Notes under the pieces: generated by a model
Databases searched by the model: none
The model's input: only the letters and a program-made list of their open reading frames with translations
Told to the model about the DNA's origin: nothing
Part shown: in pieces, positions 1-60,644 of the stretch
How positions within the stretch are numbered: the first letter of the stretch is position 1
How the letters are laid out: each line of letters opens with the position of its first letter
Source of the DNA: Eutreptiella sp. 'Long Island Sound 2002'
Taxonomy: Eukaryota; Euglenozoa; Euglenophyceae; Eutreptiales; Eutreptiaceae
Assembly: GCA_964036045.1 (NCBI GenBank)
Contig: OZ038384.1
Coordinates: forward strand, 56,083,355 to 56,147,354
Length of the DNA stretch: 64,000 bases
Reading direction: 5' to 3'
Program-made: the position numbers and the translations under genes

Positions 1-495
1 CACATGTATGGGTATATGTGCTATTGGCATATCATGGATACCTTTATGTACAGAGCCAGACGAGGTGCTGAACTCAGTCACTTCTCCATGGGTTTCTGTC
101 ATCGTATGGGTAGTCCACTTCAACTCTTCTTCCAAGGCCAGTTGGCCCTGAGAAGGCAACAACGCAGGACCATATCGGGCTAAGAAAGGGTACCCCAGGA
201 TCACCCGGGGTCCCACAAAGGCAAGATGCAAAAATGCATTCACACACCGTGCCACTACCACTCCTGCGCGGGTGTGTACAGGCAGCACAATGGTCACCCT
301 GACCCCTAACTTACCTCCGTTCAACTCCATGTTGCCTGCTCCCAACAAATGAAACTGCACATCAGCAGGCTCGCAATATTTCTTATCTATCAGCTCCCAA
401 CCAATGACACCGAGAATCTCACATCCCGTGTCAATCAATGACTGCAGCAGGTATGGGCCCGCCTCAGGATACTTATCCAGCTGGTATAGAGCCTA
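1..495 (-). pseudogene. Element O protease region (retropepsin-like), truncated by window edge
   Basis: The minus strand encodes LIDTGCEILGVIGWELI with the catalytic-type DTG at 421-432. About 90 codons later comes VILGYPFLARYGPALLPSQG, matching the hydrophobic-G-hydrophobic flap/ILG signature of retropepsins. Such aspartic proteases cleave the Gag-Pol polyprotein during particle maturation. A TAG at 493-495 interrupts the reading frame upstream (...GIIL-stop-ALYQLDKYPEAG). The frame is still open at base 1, so reverse transcriptase, if present, lies outside. The protease assignment is good; the element's superfamily is not settled. Confidence 0.72.
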
Positions 496-1433
496 TAGTA
501 TGATGCCCCGCCGCGTCTTGCGACAAATCCCAGAACGGGGTTCCCTGAGGACGTCTATCTCCACATCCTGTAACTCAATATGCTGCACAGATGCACCTTT
601 CCATGTCGCCTCATAGTCCACCCGTATGGGTGGGCGTCTATGTGACAGTGGACCGCACAAAACACACTGTCCAGGCCTCTACTTCTTACAGCGGCGCTTA
701 TATTCCTCAGCCTTCTCAGGATAGGAAATAAAACAGTCTTCAGGCCAGTGATCCATTTTACCACAACCTGGAGTAGCGCAAGGGGGGTAACGTTTCTTTG
801 GAGGGGGTTTACCCCTGTCCGCTGGAGACCTGTTGGGTCCTCCTCCTGTATCTTGATGTGTAGGAGTAGTCCTGAGCTTCTCCAGCAGCGTTTTGGGCAC
901 CCTTACACCCTTAGGAATGAGCACAGGTTGTTTAAGCGAGCAATCCTTGACCATGTGTCCAGTGCGGCCGCAATGATGACGTGTGATGTCCTTTTTTTAT
1001 CCATCAGTGCAAGCACTTGGGCCTCATCAGGCTCGAACTCTGTGGGCAGTGAGGCAGCAGGAGTACCCTCCCCTGCCTCGGAACCCTGAATTTGTTGGAC
1101 CCTGCCATGACCCTAGTGATTGCGCCGGCGCCAATGGTCCTGCTTACTGTGTGCAGCATCACGGGCCATCAGTTCTGTCATAAGCACCAGGAAAATCTCC
1201 AAATAGTTATGCTTCTTACCCTTTCTTCTCTCCTCAGGGTAGAGCTTAGAAATAAAGTTCTCCTGCCGTGGGCCCAGTGCATCCAGCAACTGGTCCCTAG
1301 CGCCCCGATGGGTTACACCACCTTTAACCTGGCTTCCATAGTAGAGCCAATCGTCCATAAAACCTGCAGCATCCAGTGCAGTGGGTTGGGCAGGCAGTTC
1401 AAGTGCTTTCCATTTGTCAGATATGACATCTGA
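496..1433 (-). pseudogene. Element O gag C-terminal half with two zinc-knuckle motifs, frameshifted
   Basis: Reading down from 1433 gives SDVISDKWKALELPAQ..., a capsid-like stretch, then a TAG at 1113-1115. A run of seven T (992-998; A on the coding strand) marks a -1 shift, after which the frame shows two CCHC-type motifs. The first (about 940-981) reads RHHCGRTGHMVKDC and has lost its first cysteine to arginine. The second (about 735-782) is intact: CATPGCGKMDHWPEDC, spacing CX4CX4HX4C. These bind nucleic acid in Gag nucleocapsid. The stops, the shift and the lost cysteine mark it as a pseudogene. Confidence 0.75.
1429..1433. repeat. Target site duplication TCTGA, left copy, of element D
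   Basis: TCTGA directly precedes the CTTAG end of D and recurs right after the other end (20258-20262). Keeping one copy restores the gag frame of element O. Confidence 0.88.
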
Positions 1434-1531
1434 CTTAGCCCACGCAAACTGCACCCTGTTTTGCCCGCCGAACGCGCAGAAAAGGAACGTTTCGCAACAG
1501 GGCAAAAAAACTATTTTTTTGGATGTTTGAT
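1434..1531 (+). repeat. Left terminal inverted repeat of D
   Basis: The first 18 bases match the right end exactly. Similarity continues through ...ACCC..TTTTG. A second block at about 1504-1531 (an A-run, CTA, a T-run, GGA..TTTG) matches 20172-20201 in inverted orientation. The TIR is therefore about 95 bp, with a diverged middle. Confidence 0.85.
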
Positions 1532-2695
1532 GAACGTGATTTTAGACGTAGTGAAATGAATTTCTTTTTTAGTGTTGTGCAACTCCGTGTTCCTCAATGT
1601 GACGGTTTTTCCATTTCTCTGGCGTTCTGACTGCGTGAGGCCTCGCGCCCTCAAGATATTGAAAGTAGAGTTTACCACGAAACCTAAAAACCCGTAAGGA
1701 CTGGCGTTTGCGGAAATACACAGCTCGGTACACGGTTTGAAAAGTAGAATTGTGTTGCCCACGGAGCATTGGAAGTGTAGGACTGTCGGACTTCCCATCT
1801 TAGGGGAAACATATGTACTGTAAAGTGAAAAAAAATACAATTTTAGGCACCCGGAGTGCGCGAGGCCTCGCGCACTCAGGTCACGTCACGCGACAATGCC
1901 TTCCCAAGCACATGCGGGAGCGGCTCAAGAGGCACCTGACATAGGGCAGTGGGAGGGACAGGACGTCCCCTTGGTAAGACCTTCTTCCTGCAATGTCAAA
2001 GGAGGCATCCCGAGCTCCCGAAGATACCTACCTACCTACCTACCTCAGGTCACGTTATTTATTGAATTTGCAGAATGGAAATACCGCGTACAATTGTAGG
2101 TACAGTACCAGAAGAACAAACACATTTGATTTTTCCGGTGTATGTGTGTGTAGACACCATGTTGGTCAGATGTAACGAGGTATAGAACATTGTCCCACGG
2201 AAACAATCAGTGCGCGAGGCCTCGCGCACTCAAACGACGGAAGAAAATCAAAAAGCAGGCAGGTCAGGCTACACCGGTATTTACATTCCCTTTCACGGCT
2301 ACCACCTGTGACAGTCGATTATACATCGGTAACCTTCGTCATATTTTTCAGGGGATCAGGGGAATGATTTGCTTTTTTCCAACAGCCACTCAATGGCAGA
2401 CGTGTCCAGTTCTAATAGCAGCCGTAGCCTTCGCTGCCCGAGAGATATGGTTTTTTTTTCCAACTGGGTTTAAAGGCGGAAACAGAATAGGAAATTGTGG
2501 TTGCGAAAACGGTTTTCGGTTACTGGGAACGGAGCGCACGCAGACACCAAATACAATCTGCGGCGGCAGCACGCGCACCAGAAATGACGACAGGAAAAGG
2601 CCAGATGTTTTCAAACACACTTTTTTTAAGGATTGCTGTGCGAAACGATAACCAAAATATGTGCGCAAATCTAATTCCACAGAGAAAGACGCAAA
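1532..2695. other. 5' non-coding part of D
   Basis: No credible gene. It holds three copies of the D palindrome (degenerate at 1633-1648; perfect at 1855-1876 and 2209-2230), a 155-bp segment shared with the satellite region, and a CCTA microsatellite (about 2025-2045). Small ORFs here look accidental. It probably contains the gene A promoter or 5' untranslated region, but I see no defined promoter motif. Confidence 0.5.
1890..2045 (+). repeat. 155-bp segment shared, inverted, with 45797-45943
   Basis: It runs from GCGACAATGCCTTCCCAAG to GAAGATACCTACCTACC. The reverse complement at 45797-45943 differs at only a few bases. It links D with the satellite block and may be a small dispersed repeat. 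No coding content is evident. Confidence 0.8.
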
Positions 2696-4693
2696 ATGCC
2701 ACTTCGAGCCAGAAAATGCGTAACACATCAGATGATAGCAGAAGTAAGCAAAGGAGCAGCAGAACTACGAGAGGCATGCGCGGCAGAACCAGCATACCAA
2801 ACAGCAGACGACCTGTGGAAAGGACTCAAACGAAACGACCTGGCGGCGCAACTGGTTTTAACATTCGCACAGCGACTCATGTTAAACAAAAGAACGCGCC
2901 ACAGTTTACCAGCAGCTAGAAGACAGGAGGACAAGCGCTGGGTGCGCATTTTGCGACAGGAGGGCTGGAACCTGTACCTGTTGATGCGTCAACGGGCAGT
3001 ACCAAACAGGAAAAAACCGGGAAACAAAACAGGGTACCCAACGCAAACAGAAAGACGAACAAAAGTACGACTTGGGCAAGCACACGCTGCCGCAGATACA
3101 GTGGACGAACAGGCAGCAGCAGCACTTAAAGCAACGTGGTCACTCGTGCTTTCGTCGTGTTGCGTGCTGTGGATAGACAACTGGTACCGGGCACAATACA
3201 CGTCACACCCAGACTAAAGTGACCGGTCACAAAACTGTACTGCAATGGCAGTACTTCAACTGAAGCAGAGGCCCACGTATTGGGCAGGACATCCAGCCAT
3301 TGAGGACCTGGCAGCACGGATGACGACGGTCCCAAGGGCTCTGCAACAGCGTGAACGAAGAATCCCCCAGACTTTGCGTGACATGGGGTATGCAGATGGG
3401 TGTGCACCAGACACCGGAAACGTGAGTGCACCGTTGGATGTGAGGAGGGAAGCAAGGACTGTGCAGGCACCGGTGTGGCGCCCGTTTGCCCTGTCAAAAG
3501 AAAAGGTAACTGGTGGTGTTGGTCTGTCAAACTTGTTACACTTTGCAAAGGACGTAGCACAACAGACAAACAGAGTTGTACCGCTGTTGGTTGACAAATG
3601 AATACACTACCGGATCCTAAAGTTGTTGTACGGGGCCAAGAACCAACGATGGAACATGCGTGCGTACCTGCGTTACGTGCCTGTAGTTTACGGTGTCTGG
3701 CATGCCTACAAGTTCGTTGTTACTCATACTTTTCGGGTGTTCTGGCCTATTCTAACCTACCTACGGAAAGGTCTGCTACGACCTGGTTCCACCATACTAT
3801 CATACCCCAAACTGATAGTTATGGAAAAAACTATTGCTGCGCTGATGCTTGCCACACCCCAAATACTACGCCCGTATCGGCGCAAGGCACAAGCTGCAAC
3901 CGCGATCAGCGGTCGTGACACTGCGCATGCCAACAGGGCAGCAGTGGCAAACGCAGTTCTGCATTTGTTGTCGGAATCATGCCCGTTTTTGTTGTACTTG
4001 GGCCACGTGGTACGGGAATGCAATTGGTCGGGGGAAAACAACGGTACAGGGTCACGAGCTCAGGAGGTGTTGCAGTTGAGTTTGTGTCTTTTGAGGAGGG
4101 TGCGTCGAGGACCGTGTGCCACCGTACTGAAGTACGAACGCACAATCATGTGCACATTGTTGTACAACAGCAAGTGGCACCAGAACCTGCCCGGTCAGGC
4201 ACACTCAGAGGAGTTTGGAGAAGGGATGTTGAGCAAGTTGGTGCGGGACAAGGCGAGAAACACGGGTTCTGTTACTGTTGAGGAGTTGGAAAACCATTAC
4301 TTGTTACTAAAGGTTGGTCCTGGTGGCAAACACGTGGGGGTGCAAAACGTTCCCAAGAACCTGGTACACAGGATGCGACAACGACTGACAAGATTTTTGG
4401 CGACAGACCGGATTTTCATGGCCTATGTGGAATGGGAGTCGGACAGAGTCAGCACCGTTGCAACTTCGTGGCCGCGGAGGTTACCGAGATTTCCACCCTC
4501 ACCTACACAACCCCTTGGTTACGACCACTGACGGCTACTTGGTCACAGCGTACTGGATGCCCTCATTGACCAGAAAACAAATCCCACCAACCAACTGAAA
4601 AGCAAACTGGATGCTGTTGTGGGGCGGAGAACAGATATGGATGCCGACAGACAGGAAGCAGCAACACACAACGTGCGGCAACGCTTGGGGTAA
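2696..4693 (+). pseudogene. D gene A, copy 1 (unknown protein, three in-frame stops)
   Basis: The only copy with the native 5' part: ATG at 2696 (MPLRARKCVTHQM...), one frame to TAA at 4691-4693, about 665 codons. It is broken by TAA 3215-3217, TGA 3599-3601 and TGA 4529-4531, at sites where copies 2 and 3 have sense codons. I do not recognise the family. A conserved patch VLWIDNWYxAQYxSHPD, then NCTAMAVL, faintly resembles the D/N motif of some DDE transposases. Hydrophobic and aromatic stretches follow (RYVPVVYGVWHAYKFVVTHTF...). As the larger part of D outside gene B, it is a reasonable transposase candidate, by position only. Confidence 0.6.
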
Positions 4694-4942
4694 CTGACGC
4701 CCGCAGTGCGCAAGGCCTCGCGCACTAAACGTTACGAAAAACAGGTATGTAATGCGATGTGAGTGCGCGAGGCCTCGCGCACTGCGTAGTTCGCTAAGTG
4801 CCGTAGATTAAGTCACAACAAAGACAGTTGTGGAACAGATTTGCGAAAACGACCTGCAAAATACCGTTTCGACTGAACTCAGAGTTCAAATGACCGTGTT
4901 TCATGTCATGCAATTTGCCCTTTTTAGGTATTTTTTGACATC
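4694..4942 (+). other. Gene A-gene B interval with two palindromes and abutting splice-like sites (copy 1)
   Basis: The sequence runs GTAACT (right after gene A), palindrome 4705-4726, AAAAACAG, GTATGT, palindrome 4762-4783, CTAAGTG/TTAAGT stretches, then CCCTTTTTAG before ATGAGT of gene B. AG and GT abut at the end of the first part, like a zero-length exon or recursive splice site. The same layout is in copies 2 (9736-9984) and 3 (14773-15021). It may be an intron joining A and B or a spacer with promoter and 5' UTR of B. No transcript evidence is available. Confidence 0.45.
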
Positions 4943-5371
4943 ATGAGTGAACCAGGGTCCCCAGAACGTCCAGCACCAGACGCAGAGGCCATGGAGTCGT
5001 CACCAGGGACCAACCAAGGGGACACGCCGAAGAGAGGACGCAAGAACAAGGGTGAGAAGAAGCCAATACCGGAGATGAAGCTCACAGTCGACGTGCAACA
5101 GTGGCCGCGGCAGGAGAATGGTAAAGCCGTGAAGGTAAAGATTGCTGAGTTGAGAATTGACAAGACCAAGGAGCGCGGACAGATCCGATCCATCAACCTT
5201 GACGATGTTGCCAGGAAAGTGACAGGATACCAAGCACTGCCACCAGCTGGACCTTTGCGCGTAACGGCGTGGGAGGATAGTGGTATGACTCGCTTCGCGT
5301 TCGATCGAAGACGTTTCTTCTCTTTGCTTCGGTACATGATTCGCTTTGCAGATGGCTCACTTTACGTTCTG
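4943..5371 (+). pseudogene. D gene B, copy 1, 5' fragment cut at the spacer
   Basis: Starts MSEPGSPERPAPDAEAMESS and follows the full gene B (15022 onward) through ...FADGSLYVL, then runs into GC-rich spacer, where a read-through of about 20 unrelated codons ends. The cut falls just before the HGQHG motif found in the complete copy. Without that motif and the rest of the protein it is unlikely to function. Confidence 0.8.
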
Positions 5372-8066
5372 GGACACGGGTCGCGGAACCCCGGCCGCCC
5401 GCCCCAGAGGGCGGGCGGCCGGGGGAGGGACAGCGCCTGACACCTGACGCCCCTCACAACGGTGGCAGGCCACGCCCCGCGGGGACGGCCCCCCACCACC
5501 CCCGCGGCACGCAGCCCCTAGAGGGCATGCAGGCCAAGGGAACAGTGTTGGGCCCCCACACCCACACGCCCAGGCCCACAGCATGTGGGTGGCGGACCCC
5601 AACAGCCCGCCCAGTGGGCGGGCAGTTCAGGGAGGGGGAGCGCCTGACCACAGACGCCCGTCACAACGGTGGAAGGCACCCCCCCTGGACCGTCCTTCCG
5701 CCAGCCCTACAGGGAGCAACGCCGGCCCGCAAGGGCGCACGCTTTGGGGCCGGTGCTGGGTCCCCACGCCCGCACCGACCGCACCCGGGACACACGGGTC
5801 GCGGAACCCCGGCTACCCGCCCCAGAGGACGGACGGCCGGGGGAGGGACAGCGCCTGACTCCAGACGCCCCTCACAACGGTGGCAGGCCAACCCCCCCGG
5901 GGACGGCCCCCCACAACCCCCACGGCGCGCAGCCCCAACAGGGCATGCAAGCCAAGGGGATTGTGATGGGCCCCCACATCCACACGCCCGCGCCCGCAGC
6001 ACGTGGGTGGCGGAGCCCAACAGCCCGCCCAGTGGGCGGGCAGTCAGGGGAGGAGGAGCAACTGACCTCAGACGCCGGTCACAACGGTGGAAGGCAACCC
6101 CCCAGGGGACGCCCTTCCGCCACCCCCACAGCGAGCAACGCCGGCCCGCAAAGGCGCACGCTCTGGAGCCGGTGCTGGCTCCCCACGCCCGCACCGACCG
6201 CGCCCGGGACGCACGGGTCGCGGTACCCCGGCTGCCCGCCCCAGAGGACCGGCAGTTGGGGGAGGGACAGCGCCTGACACCAGAAGCCCCTCCCAACGGT
6301 GGCAGGCCACCCCCCCGGGGACGGCCCCCCACCACCCCCGCGGCACGCAGCTCCCACAGGGCGTGCAGGCCAAGGGGACAGTGTTGGGCCCCCACACCCA
6401 CACGCCCGCGCCCACAGCACGTGGGTAGCGGACCCCAACAGCCCGCCCAGTAGGCGGGCACTCGGGGGAGGGGGAGCGCCTGACCTCAGACGCCCCTCGC
6501 AACGGTGGAAGGCACCCCCCCCGGGGATGCCCTTCCACCACCCCCAGAGCGAGCAACGCCGGCCCGCAAGGGCGCACGCTGTGGGGCCGGTGCTGGGTCC
6601 CCACGCCCGCACCGACCGCACCCGGGACACACGGGTCGCGGAACCCCGACCGCCCGCCCCAGAGGACGGGAGGCAGGGGGAGAGACAGCGCCTGACACCA
6701 GACGCCCCTCGCAACGGTGGCAGGCCGCCCCCCCGGGGACGGCCCCCCGCCATCCCCGCGGCACGCAGCCCCCACAGGGCATGCAGGCCAAAGGGGCAGT
6801 GATGGGCCCCCACACCCACACGCCCGCGCCCACAGCACGTGGGTGGCAGACCCCAACAGCCCGCCCAGTAGGCGGGCAGTCGGGGGAGGGGGAGCGCCCG
6901 ACCTCAGATGCCCCTCACAACGGTGGAAGGCACCCCCCCCGGGGACGCCTGTCCGCCACCCCCACAGCGAGCAACGCCGGCCCGCAAGGGCGCACGCTGT
7001 GGAACTGGTGCTGGGTCCCCACGCCCGCACCGACCGCACCCGGAACACACTGGTCGCGGTACCCCGGCTGCCTGCCCCAGAGGACGGGCGGTCGGGGAAG
7101 GAACAGCGCCTGCCACCAGACGCCCCTGACAACAGTGGCAGGCCACCCCCCCCCCGGGGACGGCCCCCAACCACCCCCGCGGCACGCAGCCCCCACAGGG
7201 CGTGCAGGCCAAGCCAGGTAGGGAGGAACCGGGACCGGACCGCCCCCCCCCCAAGCACGCCAGACGGAGCAAAAGACCGGGGCAGGACACGCGGAGGGGC
7301 ACGGACCACGTGGAACGGCCCTACCAGCGCCCAGTGCCGGGACCGCGCGAGGTGCGCACGCCACACCACCCAGGGGGGTGGGGAGCAGACGCTGCGGGAG
7401 CGCGAGCGCACACACACGCAAAGGGCACGCGGGGACTACCAGAAGGGCAACCGGACCGAGCTCGCGGAACGCACAGACCGCGTGGAATGGCGTACCAGCG
7501 AGCGAGGGTAAGGGACACCCGGACGGGACGGCCCGCCACACGCAGCGCGGGACACGCGGGGCGGGAAGGGGGAAACGGGAGAGACACAACACCAGGTAGC
7601 GGCCGGAGCCCCCCGAACCAGCCGCGAGCGCCGCGCACACACGGACGGGGCACTGCACCCGCCAAGGCAGTAGTGGCGCACTGCGCCACGCCCCAACCCC
7701 TGGGCAAGGCAGCCTCCGCGCCAGCCCAAGGGGGGCCCCACTGGCGACAAGCCAGTAGCACGGGCCCGGCAGCGCCGGCGCCTCAGGCGACCACGCATTA
7801 GGCGGGCGACGCGGTGGGTAAGCGCCCGCAGCCACGGCTGCGAATTGATGCACTGACCGGGGAGTGGCAAAACGGGGAAGCCAGGGAGGGACGGGGCTCC
7901 GAGCCCTGTGAACCCGGGGGACTCCGCTACAGGCAGCAGGTGCGTCTTGGAGGGCCCCCCACTAGGACCCGGTGGGGAGGATATCACCTGGCCCGACCAG
8001 GTGGCCCCCCGGGGCCGAAAGGCGTCTAGTACCCGTAAAATCAAACCTCAAACCTCAAACCTCAAA
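5372..8066. repeat. GC-rich spacer 1: ~417-bp repeat array plus unique end
   Basis: From 5372 to about 7214 a ~417-bp unit, itself two related halves of about 208 bp, repeats about 4.5 times (marker CACGGGTCGCGG at 5376, 5795, 6212, 6630 and, altered, 7047). Runs of C and GC-rich palindromes such as CAGCCCGCCCAGTGGGCGGG occur throughout. From 7215 to 8066 the sequence is non-repetitive and ends in CTCAAAC repeats. Long ORFs on both strands come from the lack of stops in GC-rich repeats and are not genes. Confidence 0.88.
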
Positions 8067-9735
8067 ACAGGGTACCTAAGGCAAACAGAAAGACGAACAA
8101 AAGTACGACTTGGGCAAGCAGACGCTGCCGCAGATACAGTGGACGAACAGGCAGCAGCAGCACTTAAAGCAACGTGGTCACTGGTGCTTTCGTCGTGTTG
8201 CGTGCTGTGGATAGACAACTGCATGGTACTGGGCACAATACACGTCACACCCAGACGAAAGTGACCGGTCACAAAACTGTACTGCAATGGCAGTACTTCA
8301 GCTGAAGCAGAGGCCCACGTATTGGGCAGGACATCCAGCCATTGAGGACCTGGCAGCACGGATAACGACAGTCGCAAGGGCTCTGCAACAGCGTGAACGA
8401 AGAATCCCCCAGACTTTGCGTGACATGGGGTATGCAGATGGGTGTGCACCAGACACCGGAAACGTGAGAGCACCGTTGGATGTGAGGAGGGAAGCAAGGA
8501 CTGTGCAGGCACCGGTGTGGCGCCCGTTTGCCCTGTCAAAAGAAAAGGTAACTGGTGGTGTTGGTCTGTCAAACTTGTTACACTTTGCAAAGGACGTAGC
8601 ACAACAGACAAACAGAGTTTTACTGCTGTTGGTTGACGAAAACATACACTACAGGATACTAAAGTTGTTGTACGGGGCCAAGAACCAACGATGGAACATG
8701 CGTGCGTACCTGCGTTACGTGCCTGTAGTTTACGGTGTCTGGCATGCCTACAAGTTCGTTGTTACTCATACTTTTCGGGTGTTCTGGCCTATTCTAACCT
8801 ACCTACGGAAAGGTCTGCTACGACCTGGTTTCACCATACTATCATACCCCAAACTGATAGTTATGGAAAAAACTCTTGCTGCGCTTTTGCTTGCCACACC
8901 CCAAATACTACGCCTGTATCGGCGCAAGGCACAAGCTGCAACCGCGATCAGCGGTCGTGACACTGCGCATGCCAACAGGGCAGCAGTGGCAAACGCAGTT
9001 CTGCATTTGTTGTCGGAATGGTGCCCGTTGTTGTTGTACTTGGGCCACGTGGTACGGGAATGCAATTGGTCGGGGGAAAACAACGGTACAGGGTCACGAG
9101 CCCAGGAGGTGTTGCAGTTGAGTTTGTGTCTGTTGAGGAGGGTGCGTCGAGGAACGTGTGCCACCGTACTGAAGTACGAACGCACAATCATGTGCACATT
9201 GTTGCAAAACAGCAAGTAGCACCAGGACCTGCCTGGTCAGGCACACTCAGAGGAGATTGGAAAAGGGATGTTGAGCAAGTTGGTGCGGGACGAGGCGAGA
9301 AACACGGGTTCTGTTAATGTTGAGGAGTTGGAAAACCATTACTTGTTACTAAAGGTTGGTCCTGGTGGCAAACACGTGGGGGTGCAAAACGTTCCCAAGA
9401 AGCTGGTACACAGGATGCGACAACGACTGACAAGATTTTTGGCGACAGACCGGATTTGCATGGCCTATGTGAAATGGGAACCGGACAGAGTCAGCACCGT
9501 TGCAACTTCGTGGCCGCGGAGGTTACCGAGATTTCCACCCTCACCTACACAACCCCTTGGTTACGACCACTACCGGCTACTTGGTCACAGCGTACTGGAT
9601 GCCCTCATTGACCAGAAAACAAATCCCACCAACCAACTGAAACACAAACTGGATGCTGTTGTGGGGCGGAGAGCAGATATGGATGCCGACAGACAGGAAG
9701 CAGCAACACGCAACGTGCGGCAACGCTTGCGGTAA
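8067..9735 (+). pseudogene. D gene A, copy 2 (5'-truncated, frameshift and TAG)
   Basis: It aligns with copy 1 from codon 112. A 4-bp insertion at about 8220 (CAACTGCATGGTAC where copy 3 has CAACTGGTAC) shifts the frame just inside the WIDNW patch. TAG 9217-9219 replaces the TGG tryptophan of copy 1. The frame otherwise stays open from 8287 to TAA at 9733-9735. It has no native start because spacer sequence precedes it. Confidence 0.75.
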
Positions 9736-9984
9736 CTGACGCCCGCAGTGCGCAAGGCCTCGCGCACTAAACGTTACGAAAAACAGGTATGTAATGCGAT
9801 GTGAGTGCGCGAGGCCTCGCGCACTGCGCAGTTCGCTAAGTGCCGTAGATTAAGTCACAACAAAGACAGTTGTGGAACAGATTTGCGAAAACGACCTGCA
9901 AAATACCGTTTCGACTGAACTCAGAGTTCAAATGACCGTGTTTCATGTCATGCAATTTGCCCTTTTTAGGTACTTTTTGACATC

Positions 9985-10413
9985 ATGAGTGAACCAGGGT
10001 CCCCAGAACGTCCAGCACCAGACGCAGAGGCCATGGAGTCGTCACCAGGGACCAACCAAGGGGACACGCCGAAGAGAGGACGCAAGAAGAAGGGTGAGAA
10101 GAAGCCAATACCGGAGATGAAGCTCACAGTCGACGTGCAACAGTGGCCGCGGCAGGAGAATGGTAAAGCCGTGAAATTAAAGATTGCTGAGTTGAGAATT
10201 GACAAGACCAAGGAGCGCGGACAGATCCGATCCATCGACCTTGACGATGTTGCCAGGAAAGTGACAGGATACCAAGCACTGCCACCAGCTGGACCGTTGG
10301 GCGTAACGGCGTGGGAGGATAGTGGTATGACTCGCTTCGCGTTCCATCGAAGACGTTTCTTCTCTTTGCTTCGGTACATGATTCGCTTTGCAGATGGCTC
10401 ACTTTACGTTCTG
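9985..10413 (+). pseudogene. D gene B, copy 2, 5' fragment cut at the spacer
   Basis: The same N-terminal fragment as 4943-5371, with a few substitutions (for example FHRRRFF for FDRRRFF). It is cut at the same base before the spacer. The identical cut in two copies shows that the spacer junction existed before the amplification. Confidence 0.8.
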
Positions 10414-13107
10414 GGACACGGGTCGCGGAACCCCGGCCGCCCGCCCCAGAGGGCGGGCGGCCGGGGGAGGGACAGCGCCTGACACCTGACGCCCCTCACA
10501 ACGGTGGCAGGCCACACCCCCCGGGGACGGCCCCCCACCACCCCCGCAGCACGCAGCCCCCAGAGGGCATGCAGGCCAAGGGAACAGTGTTGGGCCCCCA
10601 CACCCACACGCCCAGGCCCACAGCATGTGGGTGGCGGACCCCAACAGCCCGCCCAGTGGGCGGGCAGTTCAGGGAAGGGGAGCGCCTGACCACAGACGCC
10701 CGTCACAACGGTGGAAGGCACCCCCCCGGGACCGTCCTTCCGCCACCCCTACAGGGAGCAACGCCGGCCCGCAAGGGCACACGCTTTGGGGCCGGTGCTG
10801 GGTCCCCACGCCCGCACCGACCGCACCCGGGACACACGGGTCGCGGAACCCTGGCTACCCATCCCAGAGGACGGACGGCCGGGGGAGGGACAGCGCCTGA
10901 CTCCAGACGCCCCTCACAACGGTGGCAGGCCAACCCCCCCGGGGACGGCCCCCCACAAACCCCACGGCGCGCAGCCCCCACAGGGCATGCAAGCCAAGGG
11001 GATTGTGATGGGCCCCCACACCCACACGCCCGCGCCCGCAGCACGTGGGTGGCGGAGCCCAACAGCCCGCGCAGTGGGCGGGCAGTCGGGGGAGGAGGAG
11101 CACCTGACCTCAGACGCCGGTCACAACGGTGGAAGGCACCCCCCCAGGGGACGCCCTTCCGCCACCCCCACAGCGAGCTACGCCGGCCCGCAAAGGCGCA
11201 CGCTCTGGAACCGGTGCTGGCTCCCCACGCCCGCACCGACCGCGCCCGGGACACACGGGTCGCGGTACCCCGGCTGCCCGCCCCAGAGGACGGGCAGTTG
11301 GGGGAGGGACGGCGCCTGACACCAGACGCCCCTCCCAACAGTGGCAGGCCAGCCCACCGGGGACGGCCTCCCACCAACCCCGCGGCGTGCAGCTCCCACA
11401 GGGTGTGTTGGCCAAGGGGACAGTGTTGGGCCCCCACACCCACACGCCCGCGCCCACAGCACGTGGGTAGCGGACCCCAACAGCCCGCCCAGTAGGCGGG
11501 CACTAGGGGGAGGGGGAGCGCCTGACCTCAGACGCCCCTCGCAACGGTGGAAGGCACCCCCCCCGGGGATGCCCTTCCACCACCCCCAGAGCGAGCAACG
11601 CCGGCCCGCAAGGGCGCACGCTGTGGGGCTGGTGCTGGGTCCCCACGCGCGCAGCGACCGCACCCGGGACACACGGGTCGCGGAACCCCGACCGCCCGCC
11701 CCGGAGGACAGGAGGCAGGGGGAGAGACAGCGCCTGACACCAGACGCCCCTCGCAACGGTGGCAGGCCGCCCCCCCGGGGACGGCCCCCCGCCATCCCCG
11801 CGGCACGCAGCCCCCACAGGGCATGCAGGCCAAAGGGGCAGTGATGGGCCCGCACACCCACACGCCCGCGCCCACAGCACGTGGGTGGCAGACCCCAACA
11901 GCCCGCCCAGTAGGCGGGCAGTCGGGGGAGGGGGAGCGCCCGACCTCAGATGCCCCTCACAACGGTGGAAGGCACCCCCCCCGGGGACGCCTGTCCGCCA
12001 CCCCCACAGCGAGCAACGCCGGCCCGCAAGGGCGCACGCTGTGGAACCGGTGCTGGGTCCCCACGCCCGCACCGACCGCACCCGGAACACACTGGTCACG
12101 GTACCCCGGCTGCCTGCCCCAGAGGACGGGCGGTCGGGGAAGGAACAGCGCCTGCCACCAGACGCCCCTCACAACAGTGGCAGGCCATCCCCCCCCCGGG
12201 GACGGCCCCCAACCACCCCCGCGGCACGCAGCCCCCACAGGGCGTGCAGGCCAAGCCAGGTAGGGAGGAACCGGGACCGGACCGCCCCCCCCCAAGCACG
12301 CCAGACGGAGCAAAAGACCGGGGCAGGACACGCGGAGGGGCACGGACCACGTGGAACGGCCCTACCAGCGCCCAGTGCCGGGACCGCGCGAGGTGCGCAC
12401 GCCACACCACCCAGGGGGGTGGGGAGCAGACGCTGCGGGAGCGCGAGCGCACACACACGCAAAGGGCACGCGGGGACTACCAGAAGGGCAACTGGACCGA
12501 GCTCGCGGAACGCACAGACCGCGTGAAATGGCGTACCAGCGAGCGAGGGTAAGGGACACCCGGACGGGACGGCCCGCCACACGCAGCGCGGGACACGCGG
12601 GGCGGGAAGGGGGAAACGGGAGAGACACAACACCAGGTAGCGGCCGGAGCCCCCCGAACCAGCCGCGAGCGCCGCGCACACACGGACGGGGCACTGCACC
12701 CGCCAAGGCAGTAGTGGCGCACTGCGCCACGCCCCAACCCCTGGGCAAGGCAGCCTCCGCGCCAGCCCAAGGGGGGCCCCACTGGCGACAAGCCAGTAGC
12801 ACGGGCCCGGCAGCGCCGGCGCCCCGGGCGACCACGCATTAGGGGGGCGACGCGGTGGGTAAGCGCCCGCAGCCACGGCTGCGAATTGATGCACTGACCG
12901 GGGAGTGGCAAAACGGGGAAGCCAGGGAGGGACGGGGCTCTGAGCCCTGTGAACCCGGGGGACTCCGCTACAGGCAGCAGGTGCGTCTTGGAGGGCTCCC
13001 CACTAGGACCCGGTGGGGAGGATATCACCTGGCCCGACCAGGTGGCCCCCCGGGGCCGAAAGGCGTCTAGTACCCGCAAAATCAAGCCTCAAACCTCAAA
13101 CCTCAAA
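10414..13107. repeat. GC-rich spacer 2, near-identical to spacer 1
   Basis: Same ~417-bp array (about 10414-12255) and unique end (12256-13107) as 5372-8066, with scattered single-base differences. The high similarity between spacers suggests recent duplication or gene conversion. Confidence 0.88.
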
Positions 13108-14772
13108 ACAGGGTACCTAACGCAAACAGAAAGACGAACAAAAGTACGACTTGGGCAAGCAGACGCTGCCGCAGATACAGTGGACGAACAGGCAGCAGCA
13201 GCACTTAAAGCAACGTGGTCACTGGTGCTTTCGTCGTGTTGCGTGCTGTGGATAGACAACTGGTACTGGGCACAATACAAGTCACACCCAGACGAAAGTG
13301 ACCGGTCACAAAACTGTACTGCAATGGCAGTACTTCAGCTGAAGCAGAGGCCCACGTATTGGGCAGGACATCCAGCCATTGAGGACCTGGCAGCACGGAT
13401 AACGACAGTCGCAAGGGCTCTGCAACAGCGTGAACGAAGAATCCCCCAGACTTTGCGTGACATGGGGTATGCAGATGGGTGTGCACCAGACACCGGAAAC
13501 GTGAGAGCACCGTTGGATGTGAGGAGGGAAGCAAGGACTGTGCAGGCACCGGTGTGGCGCCCGTTTGCCCTGTCAAAAGAAAAGGTAACTGGTGGTGTTG
13601 GTCTGTTAAACTTGTTACACTTTGCAAAGGACGTAGCACAACAGACAAACAGAGTTTTACTGCTGTTGGTTGACGAAAACATACACTACAGGATACTAAA
13701 GTTGTTGTACGGGGCCAAGAACCAACGATGGAACATGCGTGCGTACCTGCGTTACGTGCCTGTAGTTTACGGTGTCTGGCATGCCTACAAGTTCGTTGTT
13801 ACTCATACTTTTCGGGTGTTCTGGCCTATTCTAACCTACCTACGGAAAGGTCTGCTACGACCAGGTTCCACCATACTATCATACCCCAAACTGATAGTTA
13901 TGGAAAAAACTCTTGCTGCGCTGATGCTTGCCACACCCCGAATACTACGCCTGTACCGGGGCAAGGCACAAGCTGCAACCGCGATCAGCGGTCGTGACAC
14001 TGCGCATGCCAACAGGGCAGCAGTGGCAAACGCAGTTGTGCATTTGTTGTCGGAATGGTGCCCGTTGTTGTTGTACTTGGGCCACGTGGTACGGGAATGC
14101 AATTGGTCGGGGGAAAACAACGGTACAGGGTCACGAGCTCAGGAGGTGTTGCAGTTGAGTTTGTGTCTGTTGAGGAGGGTGCGTCGAGGAACGTGTGCTA
14201 CCGTACTGAAGTACGAACGCACAATCATGTGCACATTGTTGCAAAACAGCAAGTAGCACCAGGACCTGCCTGGTCAGGCACACTCAGAGGAGATTGGAAA
14301 AGGGATGTTGAGCAAGTTGGTGCGGGACAAGGCGAGAAACACGGGTTCTGTTAATGTTGAGGAGGTGGAAAACCATTACTTGTTACTAAAGGTTGGTCCT
14401 GGTGGCAAACACGTGGGGGTGCAAAACGTTCCCAAGAAGCTGGTACACAGGATGCGACAACGACTGACAAGATTTTTGGCGACAGACCGGATTTGCATGG
14501 CCTATGTGAAATGGGAAGCGGACAGAGTCAGCACCGTTGCAACTTCGTGGCCGCGGAGGTTACCGAGATTTCCACCCTCACCTACACAACCCCTTGGTTA
14601 CGACCACTACCGGCTACTTGGTCACAGCGTACTGGATGCCCTCATTGACCAGAAAACAAATCCCACCAACCAACTGAAACGCAAACTGGATGCTGTTGTG
14701 GGGCGGAGAACAGATATGGATGCCGACAGACAGGAAGCAGCAACACGCAACCTGCGGCAACGCTTGGCGTAA
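13108..14772 (+). pseudogene. D gene A, copy 3 (5'-truncated, one TAG)
   Basis: The best-preserved body of gene A. It is open from the spacer junction to TAG 14254-14256, then in the same frame to TAA 14770-14772. The patch VLWIDNWYWAQYKSHPD and the following NCTAMAVL are intact here (about 13245-13335). The TAG lies where copy 1 has TGG. Joined on paper with the 5' end of copy 1 it would be about 666 codons. Gene B follows after a 249-bp interval with two palindromes (14784-14805 and 14841-14862). Confidence 0.65.
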
Positions 14773-15021
14773 CTGACGCCCGCAGTGCGCGAGGCCGCGC
14801 GCACTAAACGTTACGAAAAACAGGTATGTAATGCGATGTGAGTGCGCGAGGCCTCGCGCACTGAGTAGTTCGCTAAGTGCCGTAGATTAAGTCTCAACAA
14901 AGACGGTTGTGGAACAGATTTGCGAAAACGACCTGCAAAATACCGTTTCGACTGAAGTCAGAGTTCAAATGACCGTGTTTCATGTCATGCAATTTGCCCT
15001 TTTTAGGTATTTTTGGGCATC
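14773..15021 (+). other. Gene A-gene B interval, copy 3 (native junction to gene B)
   Basis: Same layout as 4694-4942: GTAACT, palindrome 14784-14805 (one altered arm), ACAG/GTATGT abutment at about 14823, palindrome 14841-14862, and a pyrimidine-rich CCCTTTTTAG ending at about 15006, 15 bases before the gene B ATG. Confidence 0.45.
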
Positions 15022-15792
15022 ATGAGTAAACCAGGGTCCCCAGAACGTCCAGCACCAGACGCAGAGGCCATGGAGTCGTCACCAGGGGCGGACCAAGGGG
15101 ACACGCCGAAGAAAGGACGCAAGAAGAAGGGTGAGAAGAAGCCAATACCGGAGTTGAAGCTCACAGTCGACCTGCAACAGTGGCTGCGACAGGAGAATGG
15201 TAAAGCCGTGAAGGTAAAGATTGCTGAGTTGAGAATTGACAAGACCAAGGAGCGCGGACAGATCCGATCCATCAACTATGACGATGTTGCCAGGAAAGTG
15301 ACAGGATACCAAGCACTGCCACCAGCTGGACCTTTGCGCGTAACGGCGTGGGAGGATAATGGTATGACTCGCTTCGTGTTCGATCGAAGACGTTTCTTCT
15401 CTTTGCTTCGGTACATGATTCGCTTTGCAGATGGCTCACTTTACGTTCTGCATGGTCAACATGGCACAGAAACATGCAGAAAGATTCAGGAACTGCGTCT
15501 CCCAGAAGGCAAAGAATTGGAGGACTGGCAGGAGTTCTGCTACGTCGACATTCTGAAGTACGAAACGCCTTGGAGGATCCGGGCCAAGGTTGCAGGATTG
15601 CAACAAGCTGGCAGCCAGTCTGTGACGTCGATTTAGCTGTCCGAGGCGCTGGACAACGTGTTGTTGTACATTGAGGACCAGAAGCGGGAAAAAGAGCCAC
15701 AAGATTTCGAGCGGTTCAAGATTGCTGTTGTCCAGGCTGCCGTCAACTCTGCGTTTCTTGCACACGTGGCTTTGGAGGAAGCAGGACACACA

Positions 15793-15865
15793 GTATGTAT
15801 TCGTGTATCGCACGGTTACAGTGCGCGAGGCCTCGCGCACTCCATGACACTGTTTTCCCTCGCAG
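15793..15865 (+). other. Gene B intron 1 (73 bp) with central palindrome
   Basis: GTATGT donor, CTCGCAG acceptor, phase 0 (...AGHT / DSTFKNW...). The perfect 22-bp palindrome at 15820-15841 fills the middle. Splicing is supported by the continued reading frame. Confidence 0.8.
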
Positions 15866-15905
15866 GACTCGACTTTCAAGAACTGGAGGGACATCTTCTC
15901 CCTGG

Positions 15906-15910
15906 CGTAT
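15906..15910. repeat. Target site duplication CGTAT, left copy, of element d
   Basis: CGTAT precedes the CTTAGG terminus and recurs at 17619-17623. Keeping one copy restores gene B as ...FSLAYYCGREAV.... Confidence 0.9.
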
Positions 15911-15934
15911 CTTAGGCGGCTCAAGTTGCATGGT
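15911..15934 (+). repeat. Left TIR of d
   Basis: 24 bases identical to the reverse complement of 17595-17618; the two ends diverge immediately inside. Confidence 0.9.
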
Positions 15935-17377
15935 CAAACTCACACCAAATGCACCCAATTTGGACCATGCAAAAGAAAAATTTTTCACAGGCTCTGTTTT
16001 TTGAAAACAGAACATTAGTCCAAAGAAAGTATCTTTCTTACCATTTGTGCCATTTTGTCCCTTTTTTCAGACAGCCGAAAACAAAGAAAATTATAAAAAT
16101 ATAATTAAATATTATGATTTTAGTGGAAAATGATGTGCTTTTAGCGGAAATTGGCCAAAAAATACATTTTGCGTTCCCCTTGTTTTTTGGATGAACATGG
16201 TCTGCAGAAAAGATGATTGCAACATCATTTTCTGTTCTTCATGTTCATTGCATACCTGGAAAAATGATTTACTGATCGAATTCTATGCGCGAGGCCTCGC
16301 GCAATGAAGACCAAGGATCATTAAAACAGAAGCATGGCGGATGAAATATCAGTGCAAAGCATATGCAACATGTGGTTCAAGGGCTGCCCCATGCGCGAGG
16401 CCTCGCGCATAACTTACTAAACCACAAACCTCACCCGATTCATTTTCCTCTGGAAAGACGGCTTCAGGGTCGAGTGGTCTTACTACCCACCCCACGGTTT
16501 GATTTTTGATTTGCACTGCCTGAAGAAAGAGGTATAGGTTGTGACTTTCAAGTTCTGGGACTGCATTGCAGTCTTCATTGTGCGAGGCCTCGCGCAAAAA
16601 AAGGCCCAGAAAATATATTCTTTGTACCATTGTGATGGGTTCTCATCTGATAGCGCTTGTGCACAACTTTCACTGAAGCAACGAGTACCTAAATTGTCGT
16701 TGAGTCATTGAAATTTACCAGAAGCTTGCCCCCCCCGGAGGCGGAAAAACTGTTTTTGGGCTTGGTCAGCCCCTGCGCTTGGCAGACTGCTTCCCCCAGG
16801 GCACCTTCTTTCTCCAGGTATCAAACATAATCTTGATAATTGGTGTGGTTTGCACTACATTGCATTTTACTCTCCAAAAAATTAATTTTCTTTCGCCAAA
16901 ACAAACGCTCAAAAAAGTGCAACGCATGGCAAATTCATATTTTCTTTGCACATTTTACTTTGATCCATAGTCAACAACGGAAGGATCAGTTTTTCTTCAG
17001 CCAAAGCAACAAGGGGGGTCCCTGTCCAGCTCAGCGTCATTTGTTGAGTGGACATGCTTCATGTGTTACCAGTGATACTCTTTTTTTTGCTTGACACTCC
17101 CCATAACTTGTGGCAGGTGTGCATCATGAGCAATGCTGAAGGATGCACCCGGTGCAACACCTCCAACGTATGTGCTCCTTTTGTTAGGAATGCAACAACA
17201 TTAGAAATGATTTCTTCAGTCATCAATTAGATTTACAAGGCTTGTTTAGAGCGCTGAATGTCCGCCCGCGTAAACATATTGTACAATGTGATCAAGTCAA
17301 GGGTGCCTTTAATGTCACTCCAGTGTAGGCGCCTGCTTGATTCCTCAATTCTACCATCATTACCTGACTTTGGAGGG

Positions 17378-17427
17378 GCAATGGACTGCTCCTTGCGCGA
17401 GGCCTCGCGCAAGGAACAGTCCATTGC
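17378..17427. repeat. 50-bp palindrome in d
   Basis: Arms beginning GCAATGGACTG close around the common GCGCGAGGCCTCGCGC core with one mismatch (C/T at about 17390). It is the longest version of the family and could form a 25-bp-stem hairpin or cruciform. Confidence 0.88.
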
Positions 17428-17594
17428 GCCAAAAAAAGCATTTTTTGGACCCATGAGGACCAAGAAAAGGCCAAAATTCCTTATATAAGAGTTCTTTTGG
17501 TGTTTCAAAAACGGCTTGATTTTTTGCAAGCCAAAGAATGGTTATTTTGATGTTTTTTGAGGTCCTGTATTTTGGGCACTTTCTGTCGTTTTAT

Positions 17595-17618
17595 ACCATG
17601 CAACTTGAGCCGCCTAAG
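17595..17618 (-). repeat. Right TIR of d
   Basis: Reverse complement of 15911-15934, followed by the second CGTAT (17619-17623). Confidence 0.9.
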
Positions 17619-17882
17619 CGTATTACTGCGGTCGTGAGGCGGTTACTGGCCTGAAGAACCTCAAGAATAAGAGCCGGAAAGAGGAAGTTACAAGGAATGC
17701 CTTCAAGAAGCCCGAGGGGCTGCATCTACCGAGCTTATTGCAGAAAGTCTCTGCGCACATGAACCTGAAGGACTCGACCTTACGCACCACCCAGAACTAC
17801 ATTGACGCGCAGATTACGGATCCATGGGTCATTTTCCATCTTGACCATCCGGACAATAAGCAGTATGTCAACCAGACCGCAG

Positions 17883-17953
17883 GTATGTTTCAGTGTCGCA
17901 GCTTCAGTGCGCGAGGGCTCGCGCACCCAACCACCGTTTTTACATCTCAACAG
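17883..17953 (+). other. Gene B intron 2 (71 bp) with central palindrome
   Basis: GTATGT donor, CTCAACAG acceptor, phase 1 (GCA G / CT GCT). The palindrome at 17906-17927 has one changed base (GAGGGCTC). Confidence 0.78.
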
Positions 17954-18651
17954 CTGCTGATGCAAAGATCCGAGCAGAAATTGCAGCACTGGGCACGCCG
18001 CAATTGAAAATTGGGCTGGGAAATTGGGGTTACTGGCCGGACGCAACAAGTACGAAGTATCGGTCGCCGTGGCCAAAATGCAAGACGTTGACCAATGCAC
18101 CTCTGTGGCGGACTGGGGACAAGGGCGCACCTCCATTACCGCAAACGCTGGCCGTGCGGAAACAACTGCAAAGGAACACTGAGGCACCATCATTGGCACC
18201 GTCACAGACGCAGCTGAGTACTGGCGATGTGATCAATGTCTCCAAGCAGGACGAGCAAGGGAGCAAATTCGCTTTGACGGCCTGCCGTATTGAGGATATT
18301 GAAGAGATACTGCCAGCCCGTTTCCGGGATCTGCAGTACCTGTTGTGGGTCATCAACGCTGACCTTTTCGTTGAATATGACACTGCATGATTTGTTCCGA
18401 AGTGGCTGTTCGATGTGATGATGCTGGGGAAAGACGTCATTTTCTATGGCGAGGCTGATGTTGTGCACCGTATTGGCCGCGACATACAGAGGCTGTGGCG
18501 TATGGAGAAGGACAAGGATCCAAGCACAGTGCCATTCTACCATGTTCGGTTGCCGGTATACTCTTGGTTATTGGGTCCCGTGACCAGCAGTACGTATCAG
18601 TTGGACGAGCACTGTATTTCGATCGGAACAACGAGCCGCTGGGATAAGCAG

Positions 18652-18748
18652 GTATATCTGCTTCTTTCGCCTGTTACGATGCCGTTGTGTGCGCGAGGCC
18701 TTGCGCACTGCTGCCTCCGTTATTCGCCTTTATATATCACATTTACAG
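18652..18748 (+). other. Gene B intron 3 (97 bp) with palindrome
   Basis: GTATAT donor, TTTACAG acceptor, phase 0 (...RWDKQ / LPNYVSY...). The palindrome at 18689-18708 has one arm change (CCTTGCGC). Confidence 0.78.
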
Positions 18749-19687
18749 TTGCCGAACTATGTGTCGTATTCCGCTGGACATTTCGAAGAGATGCAGAACA
18801 AGAACCTTGGTGGTTTCATGCCTCTGATTCACGTGCTGTGGTACCTGGACAAATATCTCTTGGGCAATGGGTATGCTGATGCAGTGGTTGTTGTGGACGA
18901 CACGCCTGCCATGGTCGCAAAGATTGCAATGTCCGACGTCCAAACTAAAGTGGCGTTTCTGGCTGTGTCAGCGATCAAGCAAAAAGACCTTGGGGATGCC
19001 GTTGGAGGTGCTCTGCAGCATGCAATCATCATGCGGTGCATGTTGGAGGCTTATCAGACGGAGCAGGGAGCAACAGCTCCAACTTGGGATACTCAAGAAG
19101 AGTGGCTTCAGCGTGGCATTCCACTGTGGGTTTTGGACAGCAACCGAGGGCATGAAGGGCACCAGAAGGTGCATGCTGCGGAGGCCGTCCAGGAAGATGT
19201 CGTGACTGAGGCCCCTGCTGACGACACTGAGCCTGTTGCGCCTGCACCTACCTTGCCAATGCAAGCCAAGGTGAAGAAGACTGCCAAAGTTATACCAACT
19301 CAGGGTACTGCAGCCGGAAAGGGAACCCCCTCGAGTAGCAAGAAGCAGGCAAAAGGAAAAGAGAAGGAATCGGACAAGCCCGCGGAATCAGACGACAACG
19401 ATGCCAACGATGAGGAGGAAGAAGACGATCCGGAGCAAGTACTGGAGACCCAGCAGAAGCGCAAGCGGGTACCCGCAGCTCACTTCGATGCAAGCCCCGC
19501 ATCTGGTAAGGAACAGCCGAAGAAGAAAGCGAAGACTGCTGCCACCGCTAGTGCAGAGTTCAAGCCGCCCTCGCGTTCTGGTGCCCAGCCGTCTTGTGGT
19601 ACCCTTGCCTCTCCAAGTGGGACAAGTGCAGTGGCAAGAAGCCTGGTTTCCAGGTTGGCTAAGGTTGCTGGACCGAAGAAGAAATAA

Positions 19688-20159
19688 GTCACCATTAACC
19701 AAAGTGTTTCGCCTCTTTTTGCAGTCATGCGTGCGCGAGGCCTTGCGCACTCGCCTTCGACGCGAATGGAATTATATGCTCTTAAGGGCTTGTACATTTT
19801 TGCCGAGCTTTTATTTCAGTGTTTATATGTTGTGCACTTCCTGTCCTGTTTTGGTTGCCTTCTGTACACAATTGTTTCCATGACCTTGAGTGCGCGAGGC
19901 CTCGCGCACTCAGGGACATAAAAAAGCAATTAATTTTGCAGGACAAACATAGGTGCAACTGGAGACCCGCAGAATGTCATTTTCGAAAATGAGCTCCCGA
20001 ACAGGCACGCACCAGTTGGGTTTTGAAATACAAAAACGACAAGATTGGTAAAACACACAATCCAATTCAAACCAGACAAAAAAATAGTTTATTTTAATAA
20101 ACAAAAAGTGGAAAAAAGCAGCAAATTGGGTAAAATTGAATTTTTCCGGTGGTATCTGG
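19688..20159. other. 3' non-coding part of D
   Basis: No gene. Two palindromes (19731-19750 and 19887-19912, the latter 26 bp) follow the gene B stop. The AT-rich remainder leads into the right TIR. A polyadenylation signal is likely here but I see no clear one. Confidence 0.5.
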
Positions 20160-20257
20160 GTCATGTGTGCTGCAAATGTCCAAAAAAAATAGTTTTTTGG
20201 GCGGTCATTTTTTAGGTCCTTCTCGTCCAAAAGGGGGTACAGTTTGCGTGGGCTAAG
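20160..20257 (-). repeat. Right terminal inverted repeat of D
   Basis: Its last 18 bases are the exact reverse complement of 1434-1451. The inner block 20172-20201 matches 1504-1531. Followed by TCTGA (20258-20262). Confidence 0.85.
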
Positions 20258-20880
20258 TCTGAATTTGCACGCCTGTCAACCTCATCGAAGACTAGCTTCT
20301 CCAGCGCTGCATAGCCACGACGCCGTCGATCGATGTGCTTCCCAAACCTATTGGCTAGATCCTTGGGGATGGCTGCCCGCAGCACCCGGCGCCTGACTGC
20401 ATCTCCTAGGGCCCTGCCATAATCATTATCCCACACCGAATAGGACTCCTTCCACGCTACACCAGATTCCCCCTTTTCATCCCTATGTGGCACAGTCATC
20501 AATGCCTGGGTCTCTATGAGCGATTTAGGGTTCAAATACGGCGTGGCTGCTGTGCCATACAAACCTGGACGAGGATTTCCTTGGTGAAAAGAATCCTTAA
20601 CATCTGTGGTTCCCTCATCCTCCTCATGAGGTTGTACCTCAGCAAATGCTGCGCCAAAAGAAGGAATCCCTGTGGACCTTACTTTAGGTAGCTGGGTCTC
20701 ATCCTTAAAGTCCAATGGCAAAAAGAAATTCAAAAATAAATTATCACCGAAAAATTGAACGTCCAATCCCTTACAATGACGCCAATCACCCTGTGGATTA
20801 GCGTGGGGAGGAGGAGAAGCGGTATGCGTTGTTGGATTGTTCACTTCCACACTTGACCGGCTGTGATAAGATTCCCCTCG
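20258..20880 (-). pseudogene. Element O gag, central capsid-like part
   Basis: Minus-strand frame NPTTHTASPPPHANPQ... through WKESYSVWDNDYGRALGDAV to FDEVDRRANSD, where D is inserted. It continues at 1433 as VISDKWKALELP. The charged helical character and position between coiled coil and zinc knuckles suggest capsid. Upstream the frame carries a TAG (PYAPP-stop-HATQIQ, about 20955) and shifts relative to 21174-22100. Confidence 0.65.
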
Positions 20881-59521: not shown

Positions 59522-60644
59522 TCATGGGAGCGGTCCACCAAGGTGGGCAAGGATGTCAACGGTTTGGGTGAGATTCTCTTTCTGCAAGTAATCTCTCCAA
59601 ACTTTGTTGTAGGACGGTAAGAAGCTTTTAACGGGTTCCTCGGTATCCCAATCTTTGGTATAACCCTCCCACCGCACCTTGAAGATAAGTCTCTTGCGGT
59701 AAGTACGGTGACTTAATATTTTCTTGACATTATAGGTGTCCTCCTCAAAACTGGGCGGGCACTCTAGCAACCTCCTCTGTGTAATGTAGAGGCACGGGGG
59801 AGCGAGGGGAGTTGATTCTTTTCATTAAACAACCAACGTGGACGTCAACTAACCTTCGTTGGTCCACTTGAATAACATAGAGGTCGTGCGCCTTCTTGGC
59901 CACAACCTCATAGGGCCCATCCCAATAGGGACAAGTCTTATCGCCAAGATTTTTGCGTTGGCGACGGACCCATACGCGGTCCACTTTTGAGAAATTGAGG
60001 GACATCCTCCTACTCTTATTATATTTATGAGCCATTGTCTCTTGCACTTGAATCATAGCCCTCCGTGCAAGAGCAATAAGCTCCTCACGCCGTTGGAAGT
60101 AGTGAGCGGCGTCTTGGGCCACCCCCTTAGGCTCAGCAAGAGGAGGCCCCTTAGTACGGTTGTGTTTACCAAACACAATCTCGTTAGGTGTATAACCTGA
60201 AGGACCTGTAGTCTCATGCCACGCTCGTACAACGGCGGGCAAAACCTCTACCCAATTGTTGCCTTTCCTCAAGGTAAGGGCTTTGGCAACGGCAAGCCTT
60301 AGCTGCTTGCCAGTATTTTCGGCTTTGCCATTACCTTGGTGCCTACCCGCGAGACACATAGTTGAGCGGGCACCAATCTTAGAACAAAGGGTTTGGAAAT
60401 ATTGGCTCACAAATTGTGGCCCACGGTCGGAGCATATTTCACGAGGGGCTCCGAACCTATCCATCCAGCGCTCCATTACCAAATGGGCTGCTCTTCTCCC
60501 CGTTAGCCCTTCATCCTTGTCTTCATGACGGGGTTTTAGGAATAGGGATCGCGATGAGGTAGCCGGAAAGCCGGCATACACATAGGAGCATTCGGTCATA
60601 CACCTCTCCATCATGGGAGGGGGAAGGGTAGTGAAATACATCAA
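59522..60644 (-). pseudogene. Element E integrase C-terminal half and chromodomain
   Basis: Integrase: CSDRGPQFVSQYF and GNGKAENTGK with 35 residues between D and E, then KVDRVWVRRQRKN and HDLYVIQVDQRRLVDVHVG. After a one-base insertion in a T run (about 59755) the frame continues EEDTYNVKKILSHRTYRKR...FKVRWEGYTKDWDTEEP, a chromodomain, ending at 59522. A second insertion in an A run (about 60535) separates this part from the upstream integrase. Confidence 0.85.

Follow-up and report, generated by a model that had tools for sequence, protein, structure and literature searches.

What kind of mobile element occupies nearly 19 kb between two copies of the same five bases in the genome of Eutreptiella sp. 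'Long Island Sound 2002', and what do its two genes encode? The window that we analyzed, a stretch of 64,000 nucleotides of contig OZ038384.1 (positions 56,083,355 to 56,147,354, forward strand; assembly GCA_964036045.1), contains an element here called D, which spans 18,824 bp (1434..20257) and was put forward in a preliminary description as a DNA transposon, possibly of an undescribed superfamily. Our results make it probable that D is a cut-and-paste transposon in which gene A encodes a DDE transposase of a superfamily-level lineage and gene B a putative palindrome binder. The observations behind this reading are the ends, the target-site duplications, the copy number, the gene models, and the ranking of the structural matches.

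Ends of the element and copies in the host genome

Both ends of D were found to the base where the preliminary description had placed them. A terminal inverted repeat, perfect over 18 bp and continuing imperfectly to about 30 bp, lies at 1434..1451 (+) and 20240..20257 (+), flanked by the target-site duplication TCTGA at 1429..1433 and 20258..20262 (no strand assigned). An inverted-repeat comparison of the window aligned 35 nucleotides at 89% identity, five of them within the duplication. When 300 bases of each flank were joined and one TCTGA was removed, the reconstructed empty site gave a single frame open over 200 of 200 codons (...RRANSD/VISDKW...), in agreement with the earlier proposal that it restores the gag frame of an element labeled O.

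To place this copy within a family, the host genome assembly (2.28 Gb) was searched with 167 bases of each end, which gave 694 first-look candidates for one end and 675 for the other, with 40 hits scored per end. Twenty loci were fetched, 14 with both ends and six with only the left end inside the fetched stretch. Together with the window copy, all 15 paired copies carried a perfect 5-bp duplication, and among the sizes from 1 to 12 bp that were tried only this one fits them all. Ten further pairs were sought by expected position; the right end was present in four, always with a perfect 5-bp duplication, and absent from that place in six. Paired copies, whose lack elsewhere in the genome would by the preliminary description's own account have told against it, proved abundant, with perfect duplications in 19 of 19 pairs and, by eye, no sequence common to the 19 duplications.

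The length of 18.8 kb is correct for the copy in the window but is not that of the family, as 10 of the 14 paired loci measured 6,833 to 6,859 bp (the other four 1,161, 2,063, 5,431, and 7,965 bp), and the standard element is about 6,858 bp long. Identity among ten standard copies was 93 to 100%, and three standard copies from three different chromosomes were 99.9 to 100% identical. Since standard copies are nearly identical across chromosomes, the D family has been active very recently.

Gene models and sister families

In the family consensus, gene A is a single frame of 665 amino acids, while the family model of gene B has 880 amino acids in five exons, the four introns measuring 69, 73, 71, and 97 nt. 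For splices one to three of gene B, support comes from the corresponding protein of a sister family, D2, with 42% identity over 355 amino acids and matching splice places. An alternative model with intron 0 read as coding (903 amino acids) was dropped after this comparison. Both genes were free of stops and frameshifts in 4 of the 12 tabulated copies (L021, L032, L033, and L035, with gene B scored as the 903-amino-acid version), and such intact, nearly identical copies suggest that the activity is recent or still going on. Gene B gave only chance-level matches in sequence searches of Pfam, NCBIfam, and PDB, and the protein collection yielded a single homologue, possibly as a result of intron-free gene calling in that collection. 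The predicted fold of its exon 1 was a low-confidence model (predicted local distance difference test [pLDDT] of 37). Gene B carries the motif (N/S)GQHxxEx, which we take, as a lead only, to resemble that of ParB/DGQHR proteins.

At least three families of this lineage are present in the host genome: D itself (D1 when set beside its sisters), D2, and D3. Gene A of D2 is 45% identical to that of D (67 scored copies, from 8,590 first-look candidates) and gene A of D3 30% (99 scored of 6,953). The one D2 copy measured is 6,393 bp long and has 29-bp perfect terminal repeats beginning CTTAGG; the one D3 copy measured, of 6,519 bp, has AATCA on both flanks, and the D3 start, compared in two copies, reads CTTAGGCGG. 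Eight D2 pairs were tried, and the right end was found in seven, with six perfect 5-bp duplications and one matching at four of five positions, and in one it was not at the expected place; with a copy nested in the window element counted (see below), seven of eight duplications are perfect and the eighth is the one with four of five. When 17 of the 35 gene A sequences were placed in a tree, D, D2, and D3 stood on separate well-supported branches, although the program warns of long-branch joins. All three families have CTTAG ends and 5-bp duplications, and therefore the CTTAG ends and the 5-bp stagger mark the D/D2/D3 group.

Dispersed palindromes and the putative role of gene B

A palindrome, GTGCGCGAGGCCTCGCGCAC, recurs along the element. 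With up to three mismatches it was found 18 times in the window, where none is expected, and all 18 sites are within D, the nested D2 element accounting for four. The sites, to which no strand is assigned, include GTGCGCGAGGCCTCGCGCAC at 1856..1875 and another at 2210..2229 in the 5' non-coding part, one between genes A and B (4763..4782, with further copies at 9805 and 14842), one in gene B intron 1 (15821..15840), one with a single mismatch in each of introns 2 and 3 (17907..17926 and 18689..18708), and one in the 3' non-coding part (19890..19909). The D consensus has 10 palindromes with the core TGCGCGAGG[C/G]CTCGCGCA, of which the 5' region holds three, the stretch between the genes two, three of the four gene B introns one each, and the 3' region two. 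None of the 10 lies in coding sequence, though this makes up 4,641 of the 6,858 bp, and only 10 of 200 palindrome positions are variable, versus 230 of 1,937 in other non-coding sequence and 469 of 4,641 in coding sequence.

The sister families have palindromes as well. One D2 copy contains seven such sites in its left 5 kb and two in its right part, at places corresponding to those in D; the exact core is present in five of the nine, usually flanked by T..A where D has G..C. The palindrome of D3 is a different one, near TTGGGCACTGCAGTGCCCAA, with four near-copies in the end regions (taken as non-coding) of one copy and a 32-bp perfect version in a second. In the left part of that first copy, three near-palindromes of whatever sequence were counted (two of them the D3 motif), against a mean of 0.2 and a maximum of 2 in shuffled sequence; the two in the right part (shuffled mean 0.52, maximum 2) do not stand out by count alone. 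Because they are conserved, excluded from exons, and different between families, the palindromes argue, at the level of sequence, for a putative sequence-specific dimeric binder.

By analogy with VANC21 of VANDAL21, the most likely binder would be the product of gene B. VANC21 binds short motifs in the non-coding regions of VANDAL21 and removes silencing, and the motifs of sister families diverge, as described in the parts of PMC5735166 on which we draw. The gene B protein, bound to palindromes dispersed in the non-coding parts, would mark the element's own DNA, and this mark might serve to lift silencing, in the way of VANC in VANDAL elements, or help the transposase to assemble. We tentatively extend this to an independent DDE superfamily with its own "address code," in which each family's B protein would read its own palindrome, with which it would co-evolve, and would coat or de-silence nothing but its own kind. 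In that case, several families could amplify side by side in one genome. The palindromes could, with a chance somewhat below even, instead be transposase binding sites or transcription or RNA signals, rather than a gene B target or an anti-silencing mark. Their presence close to the two ends and also in introns would fit such functions, and CACTA elements use subterminal repeats. However, the palindromes are found along the whole element, short introns included, and their core is common to D1 and D2 although the terminal repeats of these two families diverge after CTTAG.

The enzyme encoded by gene A

Sequence searches with gene A gave no significant match in Pfam (21 members scanned; best E value, 0.12), none in NCBIfam (three members scanned), and, with a profile of 35 sequences, no match at E values up to 5 among the PDB sequences, which include Hermes and P-element chains. 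Thus, a clear profile match to a known superfamily, which the preliminary description had named as the result most damaging to its proposal, did not turn up in these databases. What the preliminary description had no means of seeing is the resemblance of gene A to DDE transposases in the structural comparison. With the AlphaFold model, ranks 1 to 17 went to the transposases of the P element, Hermes, RAG1, ISCth4, and Transib, and for this reason gene A most likely encodes a DDE transposase that contains an alpha-helical insertion and is of the hAT/P/RAG type and of a superfamily-level lineage. The RNase H fold and the three conserved acidic residues by which such enzymes are recognized appear in the predicted model and in the alignment (D161, D300, and E506/E509, the last within PGxAxxEExxE), together with a WH motif at 335-336. 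The fixed-size duplications and terminal inverted repeats of DDE cut-and-paste transposons were found as well (19 of 19 in D1, seven of eight in D2, and one of one in D3).

In the mechanism that we propose, D161 and D300 would be the likely catalytic residues of the RNase H fold, and the alpha-helical insertion after the WH motif would be followed by E506 or E509 as the third acidic residue. The transposase would catalyze its reaction at the CTTAG...CTAAG ends and insert the element with a 5-bp stagger at target sites that have no evident consensus, presumably by cut-and-paste rather than copy-out.

Some results weigh against this assignment. A Foldseek search of gene A against PDB placed no DDE transposase among the 50 matches listed of 226 and gave nothing with an E value of 0.001 or lower. 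Moreover, the best structural matches being the P element and Hermes, D might be a very divergent lineage of the hAT or P group and not a separate superfamily, an explanation that we find unlikely but not negligible. It is also favored by the hAT5 families with 5-bp duplications mentioned in part of PMC12730594, the existence of which makes the preliminary description's argument from duplication size alone a weak one. Besides the Pfam and PDB profile results given above and the CTTAG ends of D, this explanation is opposed by the hAT families of Pfam, listed for none of the 21 gene A members at E values up to 10 (filters drop most matches above 0.1), and by the P-element family of Pfam (the P/THAP9 signature), also listed for none of the 21, nor had gene A a PDB sequence match. 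A KDZ signature had no Pfam match in the gene A members either, and the duplication is of 5 bp, not 7 to 8 bp.

Membership in the CMCT group (CACTA/Mirage/Chapaev/Transib, with RAG1), with duplications of 2 to 5 bp, is very improbable. The duplication size alone is within range, but of the motifs that the group has from the second D to the E, C(2)C was found in only 1 of 33 alignment rows and H(3-4)H in some of the 33 at differing, unconserved places, and the ends are CT..AG in all three families, not the CA..TG that most of the group has. Long virus-like or Polinton-type elements with terminal repeats and 5-to-6-bp duplications are known, but such an identity is hardly credible for D, with two genes found in 6.9 kb, no polymerase, capsid, or integrase family of Pfam matched significantly by the scanned gene A members or gene B models, and none of 12 pattern matches to gene A in viral contigs confirmed. 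In prokaryote genomes, none of 35 pattern matches to gene A was confirmed. A new superfamily, as first suggested, is supported within the comparison with Pfam, NCBIfam, PDB, and the literature, with Repbase outside this comparison; the literature search, at the level of abstracts, recognized no description of D.

Structure of the window copy

Compared with a standard copy (L018), the copy in the window consists, in order, of element positions 1-3769, GC-rich 418-bp repeats, 1423-3769, a second such repeat segment, 1423-4229, an insert of 1.7 kb, and 4224-6858; the first of these segments has some 160 additional bases around element position 450. Its 18.8 kb are due to partial triplication (positions 1423-3769 are present three times), the GC-rich arrays, and a nested 1.7-kb relative. 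The two tandem arrays of 418-bp units (5374..7213 and 10416..12255, both +) have no counterpart in the standard 6.86-kb copies compared and are perhaps captured host sequence. Gene A is represented by a broken first copy (2696..4693, +, its end estimated from the distance to copy 3) and by two copies truncated at their 5' ends at element position 1423 (8063..9735 and 13104..14772, both +). The first two copies of gene B are cut by the first and second repeat array, respectively (4943..5371 and 9985..10413, both +), and the third (15022..19687, +) is interrupted in exon 2 by a nested non-autonomous element with D2 ends and the duplication CGTAT (15911..17618, +).

The breakpoint at 1423 is common to the duplications of the window copy and an internal deletion in another copy (L026). 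Copy L019 has a different insertion of 1.1 kb (element positions 4191-5319), very close to the site of the nested element in exon 2 of gene B, with G-rich and C-rich ends and without CTTAG ends. Outside D, the window contains retroelement reverse transcriptase and RNase H domains at 29787-33326 (+) and 60523-62787 (-). Elsewhere in the host assembly, COX1 gave 86 matches over dozens of contigs. The copy tested, on a contig of 25 kb, scored 684 bits against PDB chain 8iuf_C1, without being identical to it, and 423 bits against the next chain; 8iuf is the respiratory supercomplex of Euglena gracilis, and the host is accordingly probably a euglenid distinct from E. gracilis. The COX1 at C42:17856-19199 (L076) has seven in-frame TGA codons, unlike the numerous others, which raises the question whether the assembly includes another organism or organelle.

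Comparison with known systems

The P element and hAT transposons such as Hermes are the best structural matches of D and share with it, in prediction, an RNase H fold in which an alpha-helical insertion precedes the last catalytic glutamate, whereas D has no sequence-profile match to them, a 5-bp instead of the usual 8-bp duplication, and CTTAG ends. Transib/RAG1, of the CMCT group, has the 5-bp duplication and a weaker structural match, but in D neither C(2)C nor H(3-4)H is conserved, and D has no Pfam match and ends of CT..AG rather than CA..TG. Zisupton/KDZ elements are likewise eukaryotic transposons able to carry an accessory gene (part of PMC12730594), although their duplications are of 7 to 8 bp, in contrast to 5 bp in D, which has no Pfam match to them. 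If our reading is true, the few DDE transposon superfamilies of eukaryotes gain one more with D, and its 5-bp stagger, combined with a P/hAT/RAG-like fold, would let one test how transposases with an insertion domain fix the distance between their cuts.

As an accessory gene in a transposon, with a motif that is presumably ParB/DGQHR-like, gene B has a parallel in Sola1-1_Ec32 of the alga Ectocarpus. The accessory protein there is ParB-like, as far as the relevant part of PMC12477816 goes, whereas gene B had no profile match and hence no methyltransferase domain was found in it. VANDAL21 and its VANC21 in Arabidopsis share with D an accessory gene and, in introns and other non-coding DNA, short motifs that are particular to each family and diverge between families (PMC5735166, in part), a likeness that covers the layout of motifs and genes only, binding by gene B being putative. 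The difference lies in the motifs themselves, which are 9 bp long and in tandem arrays in VANDAL21, as that part of the source describes them, but 20-to-22-bp palindromes at about 10 separate sites in D. If our reading holds, the dispersed palindromes of D are a candidate, open to direct test, for a code by which a transposon outside plants recognizes itself.

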